NCBI RefSeq assembly: GCF_020150815.1
Contig: NZ_CP083723.1
Coordinates: forward strand, 930,001-994,000
Reading direction: 5' to 3'
Length of the DNA stretch: 64,000 nucleotides
Origin: Haloprofundus salilacus
GTDB taxonomy: Archaea > Halobacteriota > Halobacteria > Halobacteriales > Haloferacaceae
The stretch's first letter is position 1. Each line of letters opens with the position of its first letter. A model generated the notes under the pieces. That model saw only the letters and a list, made by a program, of their open reading frames with translations. It was not told where the DNA came from and made no database searches. The position numbers and the translations under genes were made by a program. Shown here one piece after another: positions 16,099-25,142 of this stretch.

Positions 16099-17862
16099 AT
16101 GAGTACCGACAGCCCCGACGCGGCCGAGGAGGAACCCGAAGCGTTCCGCGAAGCGTGTGCGGAACTCGCCCGGCGAATCGTCGACGGCGAGATCGACCGC
16201 GACGACCTCGAGTCCGAGAAGCTGAACGTCTGTTCGGAGTTCTCCTCGCCGAAAGTGCCGAAGAACACCGAGATTCTGCAGTACGCGCCCGACGAACACC
16301 GCGACGACGTGAAAGAGGTCGTCCGTCGCAAACCTGTCCGGACGGCGTCGGGCGTCTCGCCGGTCGCCATCATGACCTCCCCCGAGATGTGTCCGCACGG
16401 GAAGTGTCTCTACTGTCCCGGCGGTCCCGCCTCGGAGTTCTCCTCCTCGCAGAGCTACACCGGCCACGAACCCGCCGCCGCCCGCGGCGTGCAGAACGAC
16501 TACGACCCGTACGGACAGGTGACGCTGCGCCTCGAACAGCTCCGGCACATCGGCCACCCCGTCGACAAGGTCGAACTCATCCTGATGGGCGGAACGATGA
16601 CCGCCCGGAGCCACGACTACCAGGAGTGGTTCGTCAAGCGCGCGCTAGAGGCGATGAACGACTACGATCTGGACTCCGAGCCGCAACCGGCCGAGGACCA
16701 GTCGTTCAAGCCCGACCCCGAGAACGTCGAGTTCCGCTACCTGGAGGACGTCATCGCCGAGAACGAAACTGGACAGATTCGAAACATCGGGACAACGTTC
16801 GAGACCAAGCCCGACTGGTGCGACCCCGAGCAGATAGACCGAATGCTCGATCTGGGCGCGACCAAGGTGGAGGTGGGCGTCCAGACGACCTACGAGCGCA
16901 TCAACCGCGAGATGCACCGCGGCCACGGCAACCAGGCCTCCATCGACGCCAACCGACGCCTCCGCGACGCGGCGTTCAAGGTCGGCTTCCACATGATGCC
17001 GGGACAACCGGGGATGACGCGCGAGATGTGCGTCGAGGACTTCCGGCAGTTGTTCAAGAACCCCGATTGGCGGCCCGACTACCTCAAAATCTACCCGACG
17101 CTCGTCGTCCGCGGCACGCGCATCTACGACTGGTGGCGGCGCGACGACTACGACCCGCTGACGAACGAGGAGGCAGCCGACATCGTCGCCGAGGCGATGG
17201 GGATGATTCCGAAGTACACGCGCCTCCAGCGCGTTCAGCGCGACATCCCCGCCGACTTCATCGACGCCGGAGTGTGGAAGTCGAACCTCCGGCAACTCGC
17301 CGAGCAGCGCGCCGAGGAGCGAGGAATACGGCTCCGCGACATCCGCGCTCGCGAGGTGGGGATGAACGAGGCGAACCCCAACCCCGGGGACGTGGAACTT
17401 GACGTGATGACGTACGAGGCCGGCGGCGGAACGGAGAAGTTCATCAGCTTCGAGGATACGGAACAGGACCTGCTCGTCGGCTTCTGTCGCCTCCGCTTTC
17501 CGTCGTACTCGCACGCCGCGCCCGAGGGCGGCGCGGAACTCTCCGCACGGGACCCGGTACGCCGCGAACTCGAAGACGCGGCGCTCGTCCGCGAACTCCA
17601 CGTCTACGGGAGCGAGGCAGGTATCGGAAGCGAAGGGGGTAGCGAGGCGCAACGTGCCTCGAAAAAGTCGAGCGGCGGGACGCCGCGAGACCAGTGGCAG
17701 CACAAGGGCTACGGGAAGAGACTCCTCAGGAAGGCCGAGGACATCGCCGCGGACGCCGGATTCGAGAAGATCTCGGTCATCTCCGGCATCGGAGTGCGGC
17801 AGTACTACCGCGAGAAGATGGGCTACCATCAGGACGGCCCGTACGTCAGTAAGCGACTCTGA
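16099..17862 (+). CDS. elp3: Elp3: tRNA U34 carboxymethylation radical SAM/GNAT enzyme
   Basis: A 587-residue enzyme that makes the cm5U family of modifications at tRNA position 34, improving codon reading. The radical SAM domain carries C98, C103 and C106 (CPHGKCLYC, the archaeal CX4CX2C spacing) followed by PGGPASEF. Other family blocks are SYTGHEPAAARG, LILMGGTMTARS, VEVGVQTTYERI, HMMPGQPGMTREM and LKIYPTLVVRGTRIYD. The C-terminal acetyltransferase domain (about 440-587) ends with GYGKRLLRKAEDIA and SGIGVRQYYREKMGY. A Ser/Gly-rich insertion (about 510-532) interrupts the GNAT domain before HKGYGKR. ATG 16099 is preferred. No other Elongator subunit is nearby, as is usual for archaeal stand-alone Elp3. 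Confidence 0.96.
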   Translation: MSTDSPDAAEEEPEAFREACAELARRIVDGEIDRDDLESEKLNVCSEFSSPKVPKNTEILQYAPDEHRDDVKEVVRRKPVRTASGVSPVAIMTSPEMCPHGKCLYCPGGPASEFSSSQSYTGHEPAAARGVQNDYDPYGQVTLRLEQLRHIGHPVDKVELILMGGTMTARSHDYQEWFVKRALEAMNDYDLDSEPQPAEDQSFKPDPENVEFRYLEDVIAENETGQIRNIGTTFETKPDWCDPEQIDRMLDLGATKVEVGVQTTYERINREMHRGHGNQASIDANRRLRDAAFKVGFHMMPGQPGMTREMCVEDFRQLFKNPDWRPDYLKIYPTLVVRGTRIYDWWRRDDYDPLTNEEAADIVAEAMGMIPKYTRLQRVQRDIPADFIDAGVWKSNLRQLAEQRAEERGIRLRDIRAREVGMNEANPNPGDVELDVMTYEAGGGTEKFISFEDTEQDLLVGFCRLRFPSYSHAAPEGGAELSARDPVRRELEDAALVRELHVYGSEAGIGSEGGSEAQRASKKSSGGTPRDQWQHKGYGKRLLRKAEDIAADAGFEKISVISGIGVRQYYREKMGYHQDGPYVSKRL

Positions 17863-18098: not shown

Positions 18099-18920
18099 AT
18101 GATAAACACGTCACGTCGAACGGCGTTGAAAGTTCTCGGCGGCGGTGCGCTGGCGGTCGGTGCAGGGACACAGACCGTCGCGGCCCAACAGCAGTCAGCA
18201 CGCGTTAGAGCGGTTCACGCCGTGCCAGACGCACCGCCCGTCGATGTCTATCTCGACGGTGAGGTAGTGATCGAAGGGTTGGAGTTCCAGCAGGTCAGTC
18301 CGTACCTATCCGGTCCGCCGGGCAGCTACCAGGTAGCGGTCACCCCGACGGGTGCGGGCCAAGGCCAGGCGGTCATCGACACGGAGGTGACCCTCGAGAG
18401 GGGTAACTACTCGCTTGCCGCCATCGGCGAGTTGAGCGACGGGAGCATCCAGCCGCTCGTGACGCAGAGTCCGATCCTGACCGGACAGGGCTCTCAGGCG
18501 CTGTCGACGGTGCAGGCAGTTCACGCTGCGCCCGACGCGCCGCCAGTCGACGTGACCGCAGTCGTCGAGTCCGAGCAACTCAACCAACGTCTGCGGTCGC
18601 TCCCGCAGCAAGTGTTGATGGGTCTCCCGATGCGGGTAGTGCGATTCAACGACGATGGGAAGGCCGTTCTCACGCTGATAGACGGCCTCAGCTTCGGCAA
18701 CGCGAGCGAGCCGTTGCCGGTCCCGGCGACGAACTACACGATCCAGGTTCGTGCGGCGACTCCCGGAAACGACGGCGACATCGTTGCGAGCGTTCCGGCC
18801 TCGCTCGAGGCGGGCGTCAGTTACACCGCCTACGCTTCCGGCTACCTCGAACCGCCGCAGGGAGTCGTCGACGAACTCGGCAACCGCGACTTCGGGCTGT
18901 TCTTCGCGACGACCGAGTAG
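18099..18920 (+). CDS. Tat-exported DUF4397-domain protein
   Basis: A 273-residue extracellular protein. The N-terminus MINTSRRTALKVLGGGAL is a twin-arginine signal (SRRTALK) with predicted cleavage after AAQQ or nearby (about residue 30). Two DUF4397 units follow, recognisable by the repeated phrase RAVHAVPDAPPVDVYLDG (34-51) and QAVHAAPDAPPVDVTAV (about 138-154). These beta-rich domains are common in surface or secreted proteins of haloarchaea and bacteria; no biochemical function is established. There is no lipobox cysteine and no C-terminal membrane anchor, so it is likely released or loosely wall-bound. Its leader is unusually AT-rich for the region. Confidence 0.88.
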   Translation: MINTSRRTALKVLGGGALAVGAGTQTVAAQQQSARVRAVHAVPDAPPVDVYLDGEVVIEGLEFQQVSPYLSGPPGSYQVAVTPTGAGQGQAVIDTEVTLERGNYSLAAIGELSDGSIQPLVTQSPILTGQGSQALSTVQAVHAAPDAPPVDVTAVVESEQLNQRLRSLPQQVLMGLPMRVVRFNDDGKAVLTLIDGLSFGNASEPLPVPATNYTIQVRAATPGNDGDIVASVPASLEAGVSYTAYASGYLEPPQGVVDELGNRDFGLFFATTE

Positions 18921-18982: not shown

Positions 18983-21097
18983 ATGGACCCAAAGCGGGAG
19001 CTTTCGAGCATCGACCTTGCCGCGCTCGTGACGGAGCTTCGCCGGTACGAGGGCGCGAAGGTCGACAAGGCCTATCTGTACGGCGACGACCTCCTGCGCC
19101 TCAAGATGCGGGATTTCGACCGCGGACGCGTCGAACTCCTCGTGGAAGTGGGCGACGTCAAGCGCGCGCACGTCGCCGACGCCGAGCACGTTCCGGACGC
19201 ACCCGGTCGACCGCCGAACTTCGCGAAGATGCTCCGAAACCGACTGTCGGGCGCGGACTTCGCGGGCGTCGAACAGTTCGAGTTCGACCGGATTCTCGTC
19301 TTCAAATTCGAGCGACCCGACGCCGACACGGAGATCGTCGCCGAACTGTTCGGGCAAGGAAACATCGCCGTTTTGGACGAGAATCGGGAGGTGGTGAGCA
19401 GCCTCTCGACCGTTCGCCTGAAGTCGCGGACCGTCGCGCCGGGTAGTCAGTACGAGTTCCCGAGTTCGCGGCTGAATCCGCTTGACGTGCGCTACGAGGC
19501 GTTTGCGCACAAGATGGACGACTCCGACACCGACGTCGTACGAACGCTCGCGACTCAACTGAATCTGGGCGGACTCTACGCCGAAGAAGTGTGCAGTCGC
19601 GCGGGCGTCGAGAAGACGCTCGACATCGCCGACGCAGGCGACGAGCAGTACGAGAGACTGTACGACGCGCTCGGACGGATTCGCGAACAGCTCTCGCGCG
19701 GCGAGTTCGACCCCCGCGTCTACCTCGAAGACGACGCCGTCGTCGACGTGACGCCGTTCCCGCTCGAAGAACACGAACGAGAGGGTCTCGACGCCGAGGC
19801 GTACGACTCGTTCAACGGCGCGCTCGACGAGTACTTCCACCGCCTCGACCGGAGCGGCGACGACGGCGGCGCCGAGGCTGCCGCCGACTCCGGCGGCCCG
19901 AACTTCGAGGAGGAGATAGCGAAGAAGAAGCGCATCATCGAGCAGCAGGAAGGCGCTATCAGCGGGTTCGACGAGCAAGCCCGAGAGGAGCGAGAGCGCG
20001 CCGAACAGGTGTACGCGCGCTACGATCTCGTGAACGAGATTCTGACGACGATCCGGGGCGCGCGCGAGCAGGGCGTTCCGTGGGACGAGATCGGCCAGAA
20101 GTTCGAGGAGGGAAGAGAGCAGGGAATCGAGGCGGCCGAGGCCGTCCGCGGCGTCGACGGTGCGAACGGAACCGTCTCCGTGGCGCTCGACGACACGACG
20201 GTCACCCTCGACGTGTCGATAGGCGTAGAGAAGAACGCCGACCGACTGTACAAAGAAGCCAAGCGCATCGAGGAGAAGAAGGAGGGCGCACTCGAAGCCA
20301 TCGAAAACACCCGCGAACAGCTCGAAGCGCTCGAAAAACGCCGCGAGGAGTGGGAGGCCGACGACGAGGAAGCGGTCGAGGAAGACGACGACGAGGAGCA
20401 CGAGGAGATAGACTGGCTCTCGCGGCAGTCGGTGCCGATTCGGCAACAGGAGCACTGGTTCGAGCGGTTCCGCTGGTTCCGGACCAGCGACGACTTCCTC
20501 GTCATCGGCGGCCGCAACGCCGACCAGAACGAGGAACTGGTGAAAAAGTACCTCGGGAAAGGCGACCTGTTCTTCCACACGCAGGCCCGCGGCGGTCCGG
20601 TGACGATTCTGAAAGCGACCGGACCGAGCGAACCCGCCCGCGACGTAGAGATTCCGGAGCAGAGCAGACAGGAGGCGGCGCAGTTTGCCGTCTCCTACGC
20701 CTCCGTCTGGAAGGAGGGGCGCTTCGCTGGGGACGCGTACATGGTGAGCCACGACCAGGTGTCGAAAACGCCCGAGAGCGGCGAGTACGTCGAGAAAGGG
20801 TCGTTCGTGATTCGCGGCAACCGGACGTACTTCCGCGACGTGAAAGCCGAAGTCGCCGTCGGCATCGCCTGCGAACCGGAGACGCGCGTCGTCGGCGGAC
20901 CGCCGTCGGCGGTCGAACCGCAGGCCGAGACGTCGATTCGACTTCAGCCAGGTCGCTACGCCCAGAACGACATGGCGCAGATGTGCTACCGCGAACTCCG
21001 CAAGCGGTTCGCCGACCAGTCGTTCGTGAGAAAGGTGGCGAGCGCCGACAAGATACAGGAGTTCCTGCCGCCGGGCGGGAGCGAGATAGTCGATTAA
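18983..21097 (+). CDS. rqcH: RqcH (NFACT-family ribosome quality control protein, Rqc2 homologue)
   Basis: A 712-residue protein that binds stalled large ribosomal subunits still carrying peptidyl-tRNA and, in bacteria, adds C-terminal alanine tails. The NFACT-N domain (1 to about 180) includes RPPNFAKMLRNRLSG and the conserved D102-R103 pair in FEFDRILVF, needed for tailing in studied homologues. Helical coiled-coil segments (about 300-380 and 420-475, with KEAKRIEEKKEGALEAI) form the M domains. NFACT-R (about 490-600) has WFERFRWFRTSDDFLVIGGR and LFFHTQARGGPVTILKATG. ATG 18983 fits the family start. Pelota lies 3 kb downstream on the same strand, with only three DUF4013 genes between. Confidence 0.95.
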   Translation: MDPKRELSSIDLAALVTELRRYEGAKVDKAYLYGDDLLRLKMRDFDRGRVELLVEVGDVKRAHVADAEHVPDAPGRPPNFAKMLRNRLSGADFAGVEQFEFDRILVFKFERPDADTEIVAELFGQGNIAVLDENREVVSSLSTVRLKSRTVAPGSQYEFPSSRLNPLDVRYEAFAHKMDDSDTDVVRTLATQLNLGGLYAEEVCSRAGVEKTLDIADAGDEQYERLYDALGRIREQLSRGEFDPRVYLEDDAVVDVTPFPLEEHEREGLDAEAYDSFNGALDEYFHRLDRSGDDGGAEAAADSGGPNFEEEIAKKKRIIEQQEGAISGFDEQAREERERAEQVYARYDLVNEILTTIRGAREQGVPWDEIGQKFEEGREQGIEAAEAVRGVDGANGTVSVALDDTTVTLDVSIGVEKNADRLYKEAKRIEEKKEGALEAIENTREQLEALEKRREEWEADDEEAVEEDDDEEHEEIDWLSRQSVPIRQQEHWFERFRWFRTSDDFLVIGGRNADQNEELVKKYLGKGDLFFHTQARGGPVTILKATGPSEPARDVEIPEQSRQEAAQFAVSYASVWKEGRFAGDAYMVSHDQVSKTPESGEYVEKGSFVIRGNRTYFRDVKAEVAVGIACEPETRVVGGPPSAVEPQAETSIRLQPGRYAQNDMAQMCYRELRKRFADQSFVRKVASADKIQEFLPPGGSEIVD

Positions 21098-21252
21098 TCG
21101 GGCGTCTGAACCGCTGCATCGCCTGAACATCCCGTTTTCACGAAGAAAAGGATATATCCACAGACGTAGTATCTGCGTAGCGAGAACTACACGGGGAGCG
21201 TCGCGTTCGCCACGAACGTTTGAGCGACTCGCGGGAGTTCTCGGAGAACATC

Positions 21253-21948
21253 ATGCTTACCGAATCACTCTCGTACGTGCGAAACAGCGACGACTGGGTC
21301 AAGAACGTCCTCATCGGGGGAATCCTCAGCCTGCTCGGCTTCCTCATCGTCCCGACGTTCCTCGTCATCGGCTACCTGCTCCGCGTCGTCCGCGGGTCGA
21401 TGCGCGGCGACGAACGACCGCCCGCGTTCGACGACTGGGGCGAGATGGCCGTCGACGGCCTGAAAGGCTTCGCCATCGGACTCGCCTACGGTCTCGTTCC
21501 GCTTACCTTGGCTGTCGTCTTCGCGGTGCTGACCGGCCTCGCGAGCGGCGGCGGCGACATCGGCGTCGTCGGTGGCCTATTCGGCCTCGTCGGCGCGCTG
21601 CTTGTCTTCGTGACGGGTCTCGCCGTCGTCTACGCGTTGCCCGCCGGCTTGGCGAACTACGCCGAGACCGACCGGATGGGCGCCGCGTTCAACACCGGAA
21701 TGCTCCGCTCGACGCTGACCTCGGGTACCTACGCGACCGCGTGGCTGACGGCGTTCGCCGTCTTCCTCGTGGCCGGTGTCGTCGCGGGCGCGCTGAACGT
21801 CGTCCCGCTGCTCGGCACCGTCGTCGGCGTATTCGTCACGTTCTATGCCGCCGTCGCCGGCTACCACATTATCGGCCGCGCGTGGGGCGAGCTGCACCCC
21901 GTCGCGATGCGCGACGACGAGATGCCCGCCGAACGCGCCGCCATCTGA
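21253..21948 (+). CDS. DUF4013 membrane protein, first of three consecutive paralogues
   Basis: A 231-residue protein with five or six hydrophobic helices. The start LTESLSYVRNSDDWVKNVLIGGIL and the IGYLLRVVRGSMRGDERPPAFDDWG segment after the first helix pair define DUF4013. A second hallmark is PAGLANYAETDRMGAAF before the last helices. The function of DUF4013 is unknown; a bacterial/archaeal membrane role is implied only by topology. ATG 21253 is preferred to TTG 21220 because family members begin with this peptide. It is followed by a closely related gene on the same strand. Confidence 0.8.
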   Translation: MLTESLSYVRNSDDWVKNVLIGGILSLLGFLIVPTFLVIGYLLRVVRGSMRGDERPPAFDDWGEMAVDGLKGFAIGLAYGLVPLTLAVVFAVLTGLASGGGDIGVVGGLFGLVGALLVFVTGLAVVYALPAGLANYAETDRMGAAFNTGMLRSTLTSGTYATAWLTAFAVFLVAGVVAGALNVVPLLGTVVGVFVTFYAAVAGYHIIGRAWGELHPVAMRDDEMPAERAAI

Positions 21949-22032
21949 CGGCCGGCGTCGGTCGAATCGTCTTTTGAAGATATCGAATTTTGGAGGTACG
22001 GTTATGTGTCGACAGTCCGACTGTGTGAGTAG

Positions 22033-23007
22033 ATGTTTCGCGACGCGCTGAACGCTCCGGCCCGCACCGCCGACGCCGTTCAGACGCTGTTTCTGGGCGG
22101 TTTTCTGTCGCTTCTCGCGCTGCTGGTACCGATTGGGTGGCTGGCGACGGTGGGGACCGTTCCGTTCTTCGTTCTCGCGTTGCCGTTCGTGTTGCTCCCG
22201 CCGCTGTTGCTGCGTGGGTACTACGTCCGAGTGATGCAGGCGGGACTCCGCGGCGAGGAGGCCGCGCCGTCGTTCGTACGGTGGAATCGACTGGTGGCCG
22301 ACGGTCTCCGGTCGTACGCCGTCGCGTTCGTCTATCTGCTCCCGGTCGTCACGCTGTGGGTACTCGTCGCCGTGGTCGCAATAGCGGTCGAACTGCGCAC
22401 TCTCGGCGGACCGACCAGTTCGGTGTTCGTCACGCTCTCGACGGCGCTAGCGGCGGTCGTCAGCGGTCTCTATCTGCCGGTTTTCGCGTACCTCGTCCCC
22501 GCCGCGCTCGTGACGTACGCCGCGACGGGACGCCTCGCCGCGGCGTTCTCCCCGCGGACCGTCGGCCGCGTTCTCGTCGACGGCGAGTACGCGAAAGGCT
22601 GGGCGGTGGCGAGCCTCCTCCTGTTCGGCGCGCTGACGGTCGCCGTTCCGCTGTCGCTGTTTCTCGTCGGCGTGTTCGTCCTCTTCTACCTCCAGACCGT
22701 CGTCCACTCGCTGTACGGCCGGACAGCACGGAAGGCGCTCGCTGTCGAACTCGGCGACGACGATCGGGCGCGCGCCGAACGCGGACAGCGCCGACCGGAG
22801 GTCGAAGCGGCGGTTCAGGTGGGACGGAGCGTCGGCCTCGCCGAAGGCCGCGGCGAGGCGGTGTCGCCGACGGACGGCGATTTCTCGTCCGGCAGCGAGT
22901 GCGGCGACGACCGGGTCGGCGGGACGAGGCGCGACGACGACCGACCCCGCGACGACCGACCCCGTGACGGAACCCGCGGCCGCACTTTCGAAGGTGGTGA
23001 CCGGTGA
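22033..23007 (+). CDS. DUF4013 membrane protein with long charged C-terminal tail, second paralogue
   Basis: A 324-residue protein. Residues 1-240 follow the same plan as the preceding gene: DALNAPARTADAVQTLFLGG, then LRGYYVRVMQAGLRGEEAAP, and VPAALVTYAATGRLAAAF. The last 80 residues are an added hydrophilic tail rich in Arg, Asp and Glu (RRPEVEAAVQVG ... RDDDRPRDDRPRDG), probably cytoplasmic and disordered. Two near-identical 15-bp units (22936-22950 and 22951-22965) encode the repeated DDRPR, pointing to slippage. Overall identity to its neighbours looks low except in the DUF4013 hallmarks, so the duplication is old. Confidence 0.78.
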   Translation: MFRDALNAPARTADAVQTLFLGGFLSLLALLVPIGWLATVGTVPFFVLALPFVLLPPLLLRGYYVRVMQAGLRGEEAAPSFVRWNRLVADGLRSYAVAFVYLLPVVTLWVLVAVVAIAVELRTLGGPTSSVFVTLSTALAAVVSGLYLPVFAYLVPAALVTYAATGRLAAAFSPRTVGRVLVDGEYAKGWAVASLLLFGALTVAVPLSLFLVGVFVLFYLQTVVHSLYGRTARKALAVELGDDDRARAERGQRRPEVEAAVQVGRSVGLAEGRGEAVSPTDGDFSSGSECGDDRVGGTRRDDDRPRDDRPRDGTRGRTFEGGDR

Positions 23008-23074
23008 CCCGTAGCGTGTCCACTACGGACGCGTAACGACACGATGAAACGACTCGCCCCGAAACGACGAGCGC

Positions 23075-23770
23075 ATGCTACGGGAGTCGCTTCGCTACCC
23101 GCTCCGCGGTGACGACGCGACGGAGACGCTGCTGATCGGCGGCGGTCTCCACGTCGTCACCGTCTTCGTCCCGTTCGTTCCACTGATTTTGGTTCTCGGC
23201 TACCTTGTCCGCGTGCTCGACGAGGGGAGCGACGGTCCGACGGCGCTCAGAGACGGGACACCTCCGGGGTTCGGCGATCTACGCGGCCTCGTCGTCGATG
23301 GGCTGAAAGCGACGCTGGTGGTCGGTCTCTACGTGGTCGGTCCGATCGTCGTACTCCTAGTGACGCTCGGTGGTGCGAGCGAGCTCTCGCCCGAGGCGCT
23401 GGCCGGAACGGCGAGCGTCGCCGTCCTCATTGGGTCGACGGCGGCACTGCTCGCGGCGCTCGGCGTCGCGTATCTCCTCCCGGCGGCGCTCGTCGGCTAC
23501 GCGCGCTCGCGTCGCCTTCGAGCGGCGTTCGACCGAGCGACGCTTCGGACGACGGCGACGGATGCGCGGTACTTCGTCGCCGTCGTCACCGCCGCCGGCG
23601 TCCTGAGCGCCGCCGCCGTGGTGTCGGTACTGGGCGCACCCCGGTCGCTACCGCGCTTCGTTGGTTTCTTCGTGCTGTTCTACACGGAAGTCGCGGCGGC
23701 GGCGCTCGTCGGCCGCGTCTACGGCGAGAGCGTCCCGGCGGAGCGGACGGAGTCGGCAAGTTCGGAATGA
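23075..23770 (+). CDS. DUF4013 membrane protein, third paralogue
   Basis: A 231-residue protein that again opens with the family signature (LRESLRYPLRGDDATETLLIGG), continues with GYLVRVLDEGSDGPTAL, and has LLPAALVGYARSRRLRAAF near the C-terminal helix pair. It lacks the long tail of its neighbour. The three genes share strand and spacing (84 bp and 67 bp gaps) and probably form one unit. Their conserved soluble loop (RVxxxGxxG...P) may be the functional site, and the different loop charges suggest that each paralogue contacts a different partner. Confidence 0.78.
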   Translation: MLRESLRYPLRGDDATETLLIGGGLHVVTVFVPFVPLILVLGYLVRVLDEGSDGPTALRDGTPPGFGDLRGLVVDGLKATLVVGLYVVGPIVVLLVTLGGASELSPEALAGTASVAVLIGSTAALLAALGVAYLLPAALVGYARSRRLRAAFDRATLRTTATDARYFVAVVTAAGVLSAAAVVSVLGAPRSLPRFVGFFVLFYTEVAAAALVGRVYGESVPAERTESASSE

Positions 23771-24074
23771 CGCGTCACTGAAGCGGCGGTGTGGCGAACA
23801 GGCAGTCTTCGTCTCGGTCTGCGGGCGGCGACCACGCGACGGCCTCGACCACGCTCCGACGGTCTGTCGGAGCGACCCGCAGTGAGCTCTCAGCTCACGG
23901 ACGGGAGTGGTTCCCTCATCCGGGATAAGGGTTCGTCGCCGTCGCGGGGTGACGGTCCCGAGTTGACGGCCGCGAATCGACGGTCGCGGATCGTCTCGGA
24001 TGGTCGTCAAGGAGTTCACCGCCGCGGCTGCGCTGATGCAAAGCCACCTTAACCCCCGAGGGCGAGTTTCGAAC
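23771..24074. other. 304-bp intergenic region with two tandem hairpins
   Basis: No convincing gene. Two perfect inverted repeats lie 8 bases apart: GCTCCGAC-ggtct-GTCGGAGC (23853-23873) and GTGAGCT-ctc-AGCTCAC (23882-23898). They could end the DUF4013 transcript or be a small structured RNA. The last 75 bp should contain the pelA promoter, but no strong TATA box is visible (ccttaaccccc near 24050 is the best candidate). Confidence 0.5.
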
Positions 24075-25142
24075 ATGCGAATCGCAGGCCGTGGTCGCGG
24101 CGAAGAGGGGCGCGAGCGCATCACGCTCGTCCCCGAGAACGTCGACGACCTCTGGCATCTCTCGTACGTACTCGAACCCGGCGACCACGTCTCGGGCGAT
24201 ACGACCCGGCGCATCCAGCGCGCCGACGACCAGATGCGCGACACCGGCGGCGAGCGTGAACACCTCCACGTCACCATCGAAGTCGACGACGTGGAGTTCG
24301 CCCGTTTCGCCAATCGGCTTCGCGTCGGCGGCGTCATCGTCGGCTGTTCCCGCGAGGACCAACTCGGCCACCACCACACGCTCAACGTCGAGGAACGCGG
24401 CGAGATAACCATCGAGAAGCACTTCAAGCCGGACCAGATCGACCGCATCGAGGAGGCCGAACGCGCCACCGAGAACCCCGATGTCGTCATCGCCACCGTC
24501 GAGGAGGGCGAGGCCTACATCCACACCGTCGCCCAGTACGGCACCGAGGAGTACGCATCGTTCACCGCACCGACCGGGAAGGGCGAGTACGCGCGTCCGC
24601 GAAGCGAACTGTTCGACGAACTCGGGTCGGCGCTGTCGCACGCCGACGCCGACACGGTGATTCTGGCCGGGCCGGGCTTTACGAAGCAGGACGCCCGCGA
24701 CTACATCGCCGACAACTACCCCGAGGTAGCCGAGAAACTGACCACCGTCGACACCGCGAGCGTCGGCGACCGGGGCGTCCACGAGGTGCTGAAGCGCGGG
24801 GCAGTCGACGACGTCCAGAAGGAGACCCGCATCGCCCGCGAGGCCGAGCGCATCGACGATCTGATGGAACGCATCGCCGAGGGCGCGAAAGCCGCCTACG
24901 GCGTCGATGAGGTGGCGCAAGCCGCCGAGTTCGGCGCGATAGAGGAACTGCTGATTCTGGACTCCCGGCTGCGGGACGAAAGACAGGGCCGCGGCGACTG
25001 GATGCGGGACGTAAACGAGATAATCGAAACCGTCGAGCAGAAAGGCGGCGAGGTGACCGTCTTCTCCGTGGAGTTCCAGCCTGGTCAGCAACTGAAGAAT
25101 CTCGGTGGCATCGCGGCGCTACTGCGCTACCGACTCAAGTAG
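24075..25142 (+). CDS. pelA: Pelota, mRNA surveillance and ribosome rescue factor
   Basis: A 355-residue eRF1-like protein that, with an aEF1A/ABCE1 partner, dissociates ribosomes stalled on truncated or aberrant mRNA. The N-terminal Sm-like domain spans about 1-130 ([22 protein letters not shown] is diagnostic; [17 protein letters not shown] follows). The central domain (about 135-265) contains [13 protein letters not shown] and [17 protein letters not shown]. The C-terminal L30e-like domain (about 266-355) ends with [19 protein letters not shown]. No GGQ motif is present, as expected for Pelota versus aRF1. ATG 24075 matches family starts (MRI...). The proximity to rqcH joins the two steps of ribosome-associated quality control. 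Confidence 0.97.

Follow-up and report, generated by a model that had tools for sequence, protein, structure and literature searches.

The window, by which we mean the whole stretch of 64,000 nucleotides of Haloprofundus salilacus DNA under analysis, holds rqcH, three DUF4013 genes and pelA in series, all on the forward strand (Table 1). This five-gene same-strand block, as described in the initial annotation, is present, and all profile scores lie above their cut-offs. The RqcH protein scored 838 bits against NF041120 (cut-off 400), covering model positions 1 to 645, contains the NFACT-N and NFACT-R domains and is 90% identical to that of Haloprofundus marisrubri, the nearest named relative. 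A DR pair is required for tRNA recruitment in bacterial RqcH, and residues D102-R103 of the window's protein align with this pair in the Bacillus subtilis RqcH and human NEMF structures (7aqc and 9gy4). Pelota scored 301 bits against TIGR00111 (cut-off 177.65) and possesses three eRF1-like domains (PF03463, PF03464 and PF03465); the closest solved structure is the archaeal pelota 3oby (E 1e-79). We dropped the ATG at 24000 in favor of the ATG at 24075 as the pelA start, since the TIGR00111 match to the longer open reading frame begins only at residue 36 and a genus-conserved promoter-like element lies 27 nt upstream of the second ATG.

Table 1. Features of the rqcH-pelA block, with positions counted from the first letter of the window
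Feature	Positions	Strand	Description and basis
rqcH	18983-21097	+	Archaeal RqcH / NEMF / Rqc2 orthologue, 704 aa; NF041120, PF05833 + PF05670
TATA-like element of B1 gene	21150-21159	+	GGATATATCC; followed by conserved 5' leader (about 21180-21252)
DUF4013 gene, subfamily B1	21253-21948	+	Membrane protein, 231 aa; PF13197, start by comparison, tree, model
Promoter-like element before B2 gene	21992-22007	+	GGAGGTACGGTTATG; about 30 nt before the gene, invariant in four Haloprofundus members
DUF4013 gene, subfamily B2	22033-23007	+	Membrane domain plus acidic disordered tail, 324 aa; PF13197, tree
Motif in B2 tail	22813-22833	+	VQVGRSV; general form VQxGRxV
DUF4013 gene, subfamily B3	23075-23770	+	Membrane protein, 231 aa; PF13197 (89 bits), tree
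Palindromic non-coding element	23819-23882	.	64 nt; stems CTGCGGG/CCCGCAG (outer) and GCTCCGA/TCGGAGC (inner hairpin), variable loop
Promoter-like element of pelA	24044-24059	+	CCACCTTAACCCCCGA
pelA	24075-25142	+	Archaeal Pelota/Dom34, 355 aa; TIGR00111, structure 3oby

The proteins encoded by B1, B2 and B3 match the full PF13197 domain at about 136, 86 and 89 bits, respectively (gathering cut-off 26.9). For the first of these genes, a TTG start at 21220 was ruled out, since between-species indels break that frame, and the ATG at 21253 was used. The AlphaFold2 model of B1 is that of a helical membrane protein (mean pLDDT 91.9, pTM 0.86); a Foldseek search of this model against the PDB returned no match at E up to 0.001, and comparison of the DUF4013 sequence with solved structures gave no convincing match, so that the fold gives no functional lead. 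The window's RqcH shares NFACT-N, NFACT-R and the DR pair with the proteins of the bacterial RqcH/RqcP and eukaryotic NEMF/Listerin systems, and neither system is known to have a DUF4013-like polytopic membrane partner. A search of the open-access literature returned no paper that treats archaeal DUF4013 or an rqcH-DUF4013-pelA cluster.

Spacing and regulatory signals

The intergenic gaps of the block measure, from rqcH to pelA, 155, 84, 67 and 304 bp. In the element ahead of B1, three of four Haloprofundus sequences share ATATATCC, H. marisrubri having GGTTAAATCC instead, and the flanks diverge; the element ahead of pelA falls within 24 consecutive bases that four genus members share without a difference, and its position would be consistent with a leaderless pelA transcript. 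Since conserved promoter-like elements precede B1, B2 and pelA, the window's block probably does not form one simple operon, with read-through being possible. The spacing is operon-like, at -1 to 35 bp, in several other lineages: one genome has gaps of 1, 10 and 35 bp in the order rqcH-DUF-DUF-pelA (L056), rqcH and DUF4013 overlap by 1 nt in a second (L064) and are separated by 2 bp in a third (L063), and the gap from DUF4013 to pelA is 24 to 25 bp in six Halorubrum-like genomes. These arrangements suggest that rqcH, DUF4013 and pelA may be co-transcribed. The leader of the B1 gene, between the TATA-like element and the ATG, contains short inverted repeats (CGTTCG..CGAACG and GTTCTCGGAGAAC), and B1 genes in other genera also carry a GGTGA/GGAG-type ribosome-binding site.

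A likely terminator had been suggested ahead of pelA; a consensus scan of the gap between B3 and pelA found no T-run terminator there, and what occupies the gap instead is a conserved imperfect palindrome without a T-run. The palindrome is conserved upstream of pelA in all sampled Haloprofundus members, none was found at the rqcH/pelA locus outside this genus, and it could serve as an RNA structure or as a DNA operator. Rfam and tRNA searches of the intergenic regions, palindrome included, returned nothing above a gathering cut-off.

Linkage of DUF4013 to rqcH and pelA in Halobacteria

A survey of gene order across Halobacteria had been set beforehand as the refuting test for the association. 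All 59 genomes of the first survey carry both rqcH and pelA. At E up to 0.001 they contain 109 copies of DUF4013, of which 40, spread over 30 genomes, are linked, meaning that rqcH or pelA is no more than 5 kb away, far above a chance expectation of about 0.7% per copy, or less than 1 copy in 109. A second draw of 141 genomes from 57 genera, which included the first 59, gave 88 linked copies among the 150 matches listed; these were ranked by a profile of the B2 type, making this a biased fraction and 40/109 the fairer one. Among the same matches, 86 of the 88 linked copies lie on the strand of the rqcH or pelA gene that they adjoin. The two surveys thus reject chance neighborhood, which the initial annotation had taken as its null hypothesis.

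Many Halobacteria carry one to four DUF4013 genes between or beside rqcH and pelA, the linked copies fall into seven family codes (f1, f2, f3, f6, f7, f8 and f24), and all 38 aligned linked proteins match PF13197. The Natrialbaceae-like family f4 is nearly without linkage, with unrelated genes between rqcH and pelA or the two genes apart. The neighbors of unlinked haloarchaeal DUF4013 genes were varied, with no common functional theme and no consistent stress-gene neighborhood; in Halorubrum-like genomes (L140 to L146), an unlinked copy is convergent to a gene that resembles, by eye, ribosomal protein uL11. In Haladaptatus (L004, L008 and L043), one DUF4013 copy lies between rqcH and pelA on the opposite strand; in the tree it clusters with haloarchaeal copies that are unlinked, which suggests a separate arrival.

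Beyond Halobacteria, the same two genes (NF041120 and TIGR00111) occur in the same order and on the same strand, and 49 of 81 Halobacteriota genomes have under 500 bp between them (median gap 33 bp); the window differs from this abutting pair in that roughly 3 kb, holding three DUF4013 genes, separates rqcH from pelA. None of the 77 DUF4013 copies in the 81 genomes, methanogens included, lies within 10 kb of rqcH or pelA. Bare pairs are found inside Halobacteria too, with a 1-bp overlap at two loci (L067 and L068). These three observations establish that DUF4013 was inserted within Halobacteria into an rqcH-pelA adjacency that is ancestral in the phylum Halobacteriota.

A tree built from 131 DUF4013 domains places the window's copies in three separate groups, and the first to join each are copies that other genera carry at this locus, with orthologues of B1, B2 and B3 each occupying the same slot. 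The tree rejects a recent tandem duplication and shows that B1, B2 and B3 are distinct subfamilies of old standing. Halobium salinum has four DUF4013 types side by side, and subsets are kept by lineage, with two types in Halobellus and only the B2 type in Halorubrum-like genomes. The linked label requires 12 changes on this tree, whose midpoint root and weak deep branches make any count of insertions provisional, and well-supported branches force at least four.

The B2 type is the most tightly tied subfamily. Among the matches listed for the 141 genomes, 30 of 30 B2-type copies adjoin pelA or rqcH; the copy remains at pelA in many genomes in which rqcH lies 0.1 to 2.4 Mb away, and it remains at rqcH in one genome with pelA elsewhere (G149). 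Within the acidic tail, which we infer to be cytoplasmic, the Q, G, R and last V of VQxGRxV are invariant in 16 of 16 B2 proteins, the rest being unconserved, and a second motif, F[ED]WG, forms the end of many B2 proteins. The window's three proteins belong to the same PF13197 family as those of methanogens, a family with no assigned function; the methanogen members, on the other hand, lack a disordered acidic tail with the invariant VQxGRxV of linked B2. A recurring C terminus is also seen in B1-type proteins ([DE]-x-R-A-A-I, E-S-P-A-V or E-Q-P-A-V; 21919-21945 in the window) and is common to some unlinked relatives.

A possible role for membrane proteins in ribosome quality control, and its alternatives

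Ribosome quality control is poorly characterized in archaea, and how ribosomes stalled on membrane-protein messages are cleared is largely open outside eukaryotes. The initial annotation proposed that, should the block be kept in other genomes, the DUF4013 proteins might link ribosome quality control to stalled membrane-protein synthesis. The conserved linkage speaks for that proposal, while the absence of linkage outside Halobacteria, its near absence in f4, the separate promoter-like signals and the equal persistence of some other neighbors speak against it. The linkage itself is firmly supported; that DUF4013 proteins act at the membrane in ribosome quality control is plausible, but only slightly likelier than an inherited gene order.

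The reading that we tentatively prefer, with rather less than even confidence, is that the DUF4013 genes are a lineage-specific expansion of the ancestral rqcH-pelA operon, kept by selection, and that their products assist ribosome quality control as accessory partners in the membrane. The sequence of events would be as follows: (i) one to four DUF4013 genes entered the rqcH-pelA locus of Halobacteria, either between the two genes or next to them, and would then have been retained by selection; (ii) Pelota, with ABCE1, would split stalled ribosomes; (iii) RqcH would bind the resulting 50S-peptidyl-tRNA; (iv) the cytoplasmic parts of DUF4013 proteins, in B2 the tail with VQxGRxV, would hold or recruit the 50S-RqcH complex at the membrane, where stalled chains bound for the membrane or for secretion could be handled. 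Any physical contact, like the membrane role itself and the direction in which recruitment would run, is a proposal on our part. The association is dispensable for ribosome quality control as such, since f4 is almost without it and several lineages have a bare abutting rqcH-pelA pair. The opposite-strand copy of Haladaptatus, the varied surroundings of unlinked haloarchaeal copies and the lack of a PDB match for the fold also weigh against the preferred reading.

A narrower form of the preferred reading, which we regard as unlikely, makes B2-type DUF4013 a dedicated haloarchaeal receptor of a previously undescribed fold, whose VQxGRxV tail would dock the Pelota-split 50S-RqcH complex at the membrane. 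If true, archaeal ribosome quality control would have a branch specific to the membrane. DUF4013 in any case gains its first consistent genomic context, with one short motif to mutate in B2, and the linkage hints at a possible membrane partner for ribosome rescue in many salt-loving archaea.

The strongest alternative, and a quite possible one, is inherited gene order: DUF4013 would have been inserted once or a few times in early Halobacteria, been duplicated and stayed in place through slow rearrangement, while doing an unrelated membrane job. Shared ancestry inflates all of the linkage counts and could by itself still explain the association. Other neighbors are comparably persistent. Within Haloferacaceae, the downstream genes, OCD and MFS included, are kept at 9 of 11 loci and DUF4013 at 10 of 11; across 26 loci of other families, Elp3 is kept at 10, an MBL-fold hydrolase beside pelA at 9 and DUF4013 at 6, in a set that is rich in Natrialbaceae, which have no DUF4013 at the locus, and is therefore not a fair test of DUF4013. 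Because Elp3 and the hydrolase are retained at least as well, retention alone cannot be claimed as proof of selection. The rqcH-pelA interval holds unrelated inserts too (an AIR-synthase-like gene, a histidine kinase, an MFS gene and transposase-like genes), and retention at pelA alone is weak evidence, since after a single break the inserted gene must stay with one partner. Slow rearrangement accounts less readily for the near-uniform co-direction (86/88) and the unfailing linkage of the B2 type (30/30), both among the matches listed, for the tight spacing in several lineages and for the loss of most other neighbors outside Haloferacaceae, where OCD, MFS and DUF4397 are found at 0 of the 26 loci.

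A second alternative is co-expression without contact, in which DUF4013 proteins would belong to a general stress response of the membrane or envelope, needed when ribosome rescue is needed too, and proximity would reflect shared regulation only. The mixed architecture, a tight operon in some lineages and separate promoter-like elements in others, would suit it, as would the conserved 5' leader of the B1 gene within the genus and the multi-copy nature of DUF4013, which is unlinked in methanogens. The tail motif, conserved and exclusive to the linked B2 type, points on the contrary to a specific partner, and the unlinked copies have no consistent stress-gene neighborhood; we judge co-expression alone to be improbable.

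Other genes near rqcH vary in how well they are kept. A DUF4397 gene for a secreted-type protein (signal-like start, by eye) lies directly before rqcH at 18099-18920 and is retained in this genus only. In a few genera, rqcH has beside it a gene for a small membrane protein with a C-terminal domain of the SHOCT type (L038:9514-9951, L058:7478-7903, L088:7871-8281 and L089:4555-5220, with the Pfam match tested for L038, L058 and L089); we rejected these proteins as a regular partner upstream of rqcH, where they occur within 3 kb at only 5 of 106 loci. The gene for Elp3, a tRNA modification protein, lies upstream of rqcH at 16099-17862 in the window, and the 10 loci that keep it outside Haloferacaceae have it within 6 kb; its retention suggests that the neighborhood may be a wider translation-stress region.
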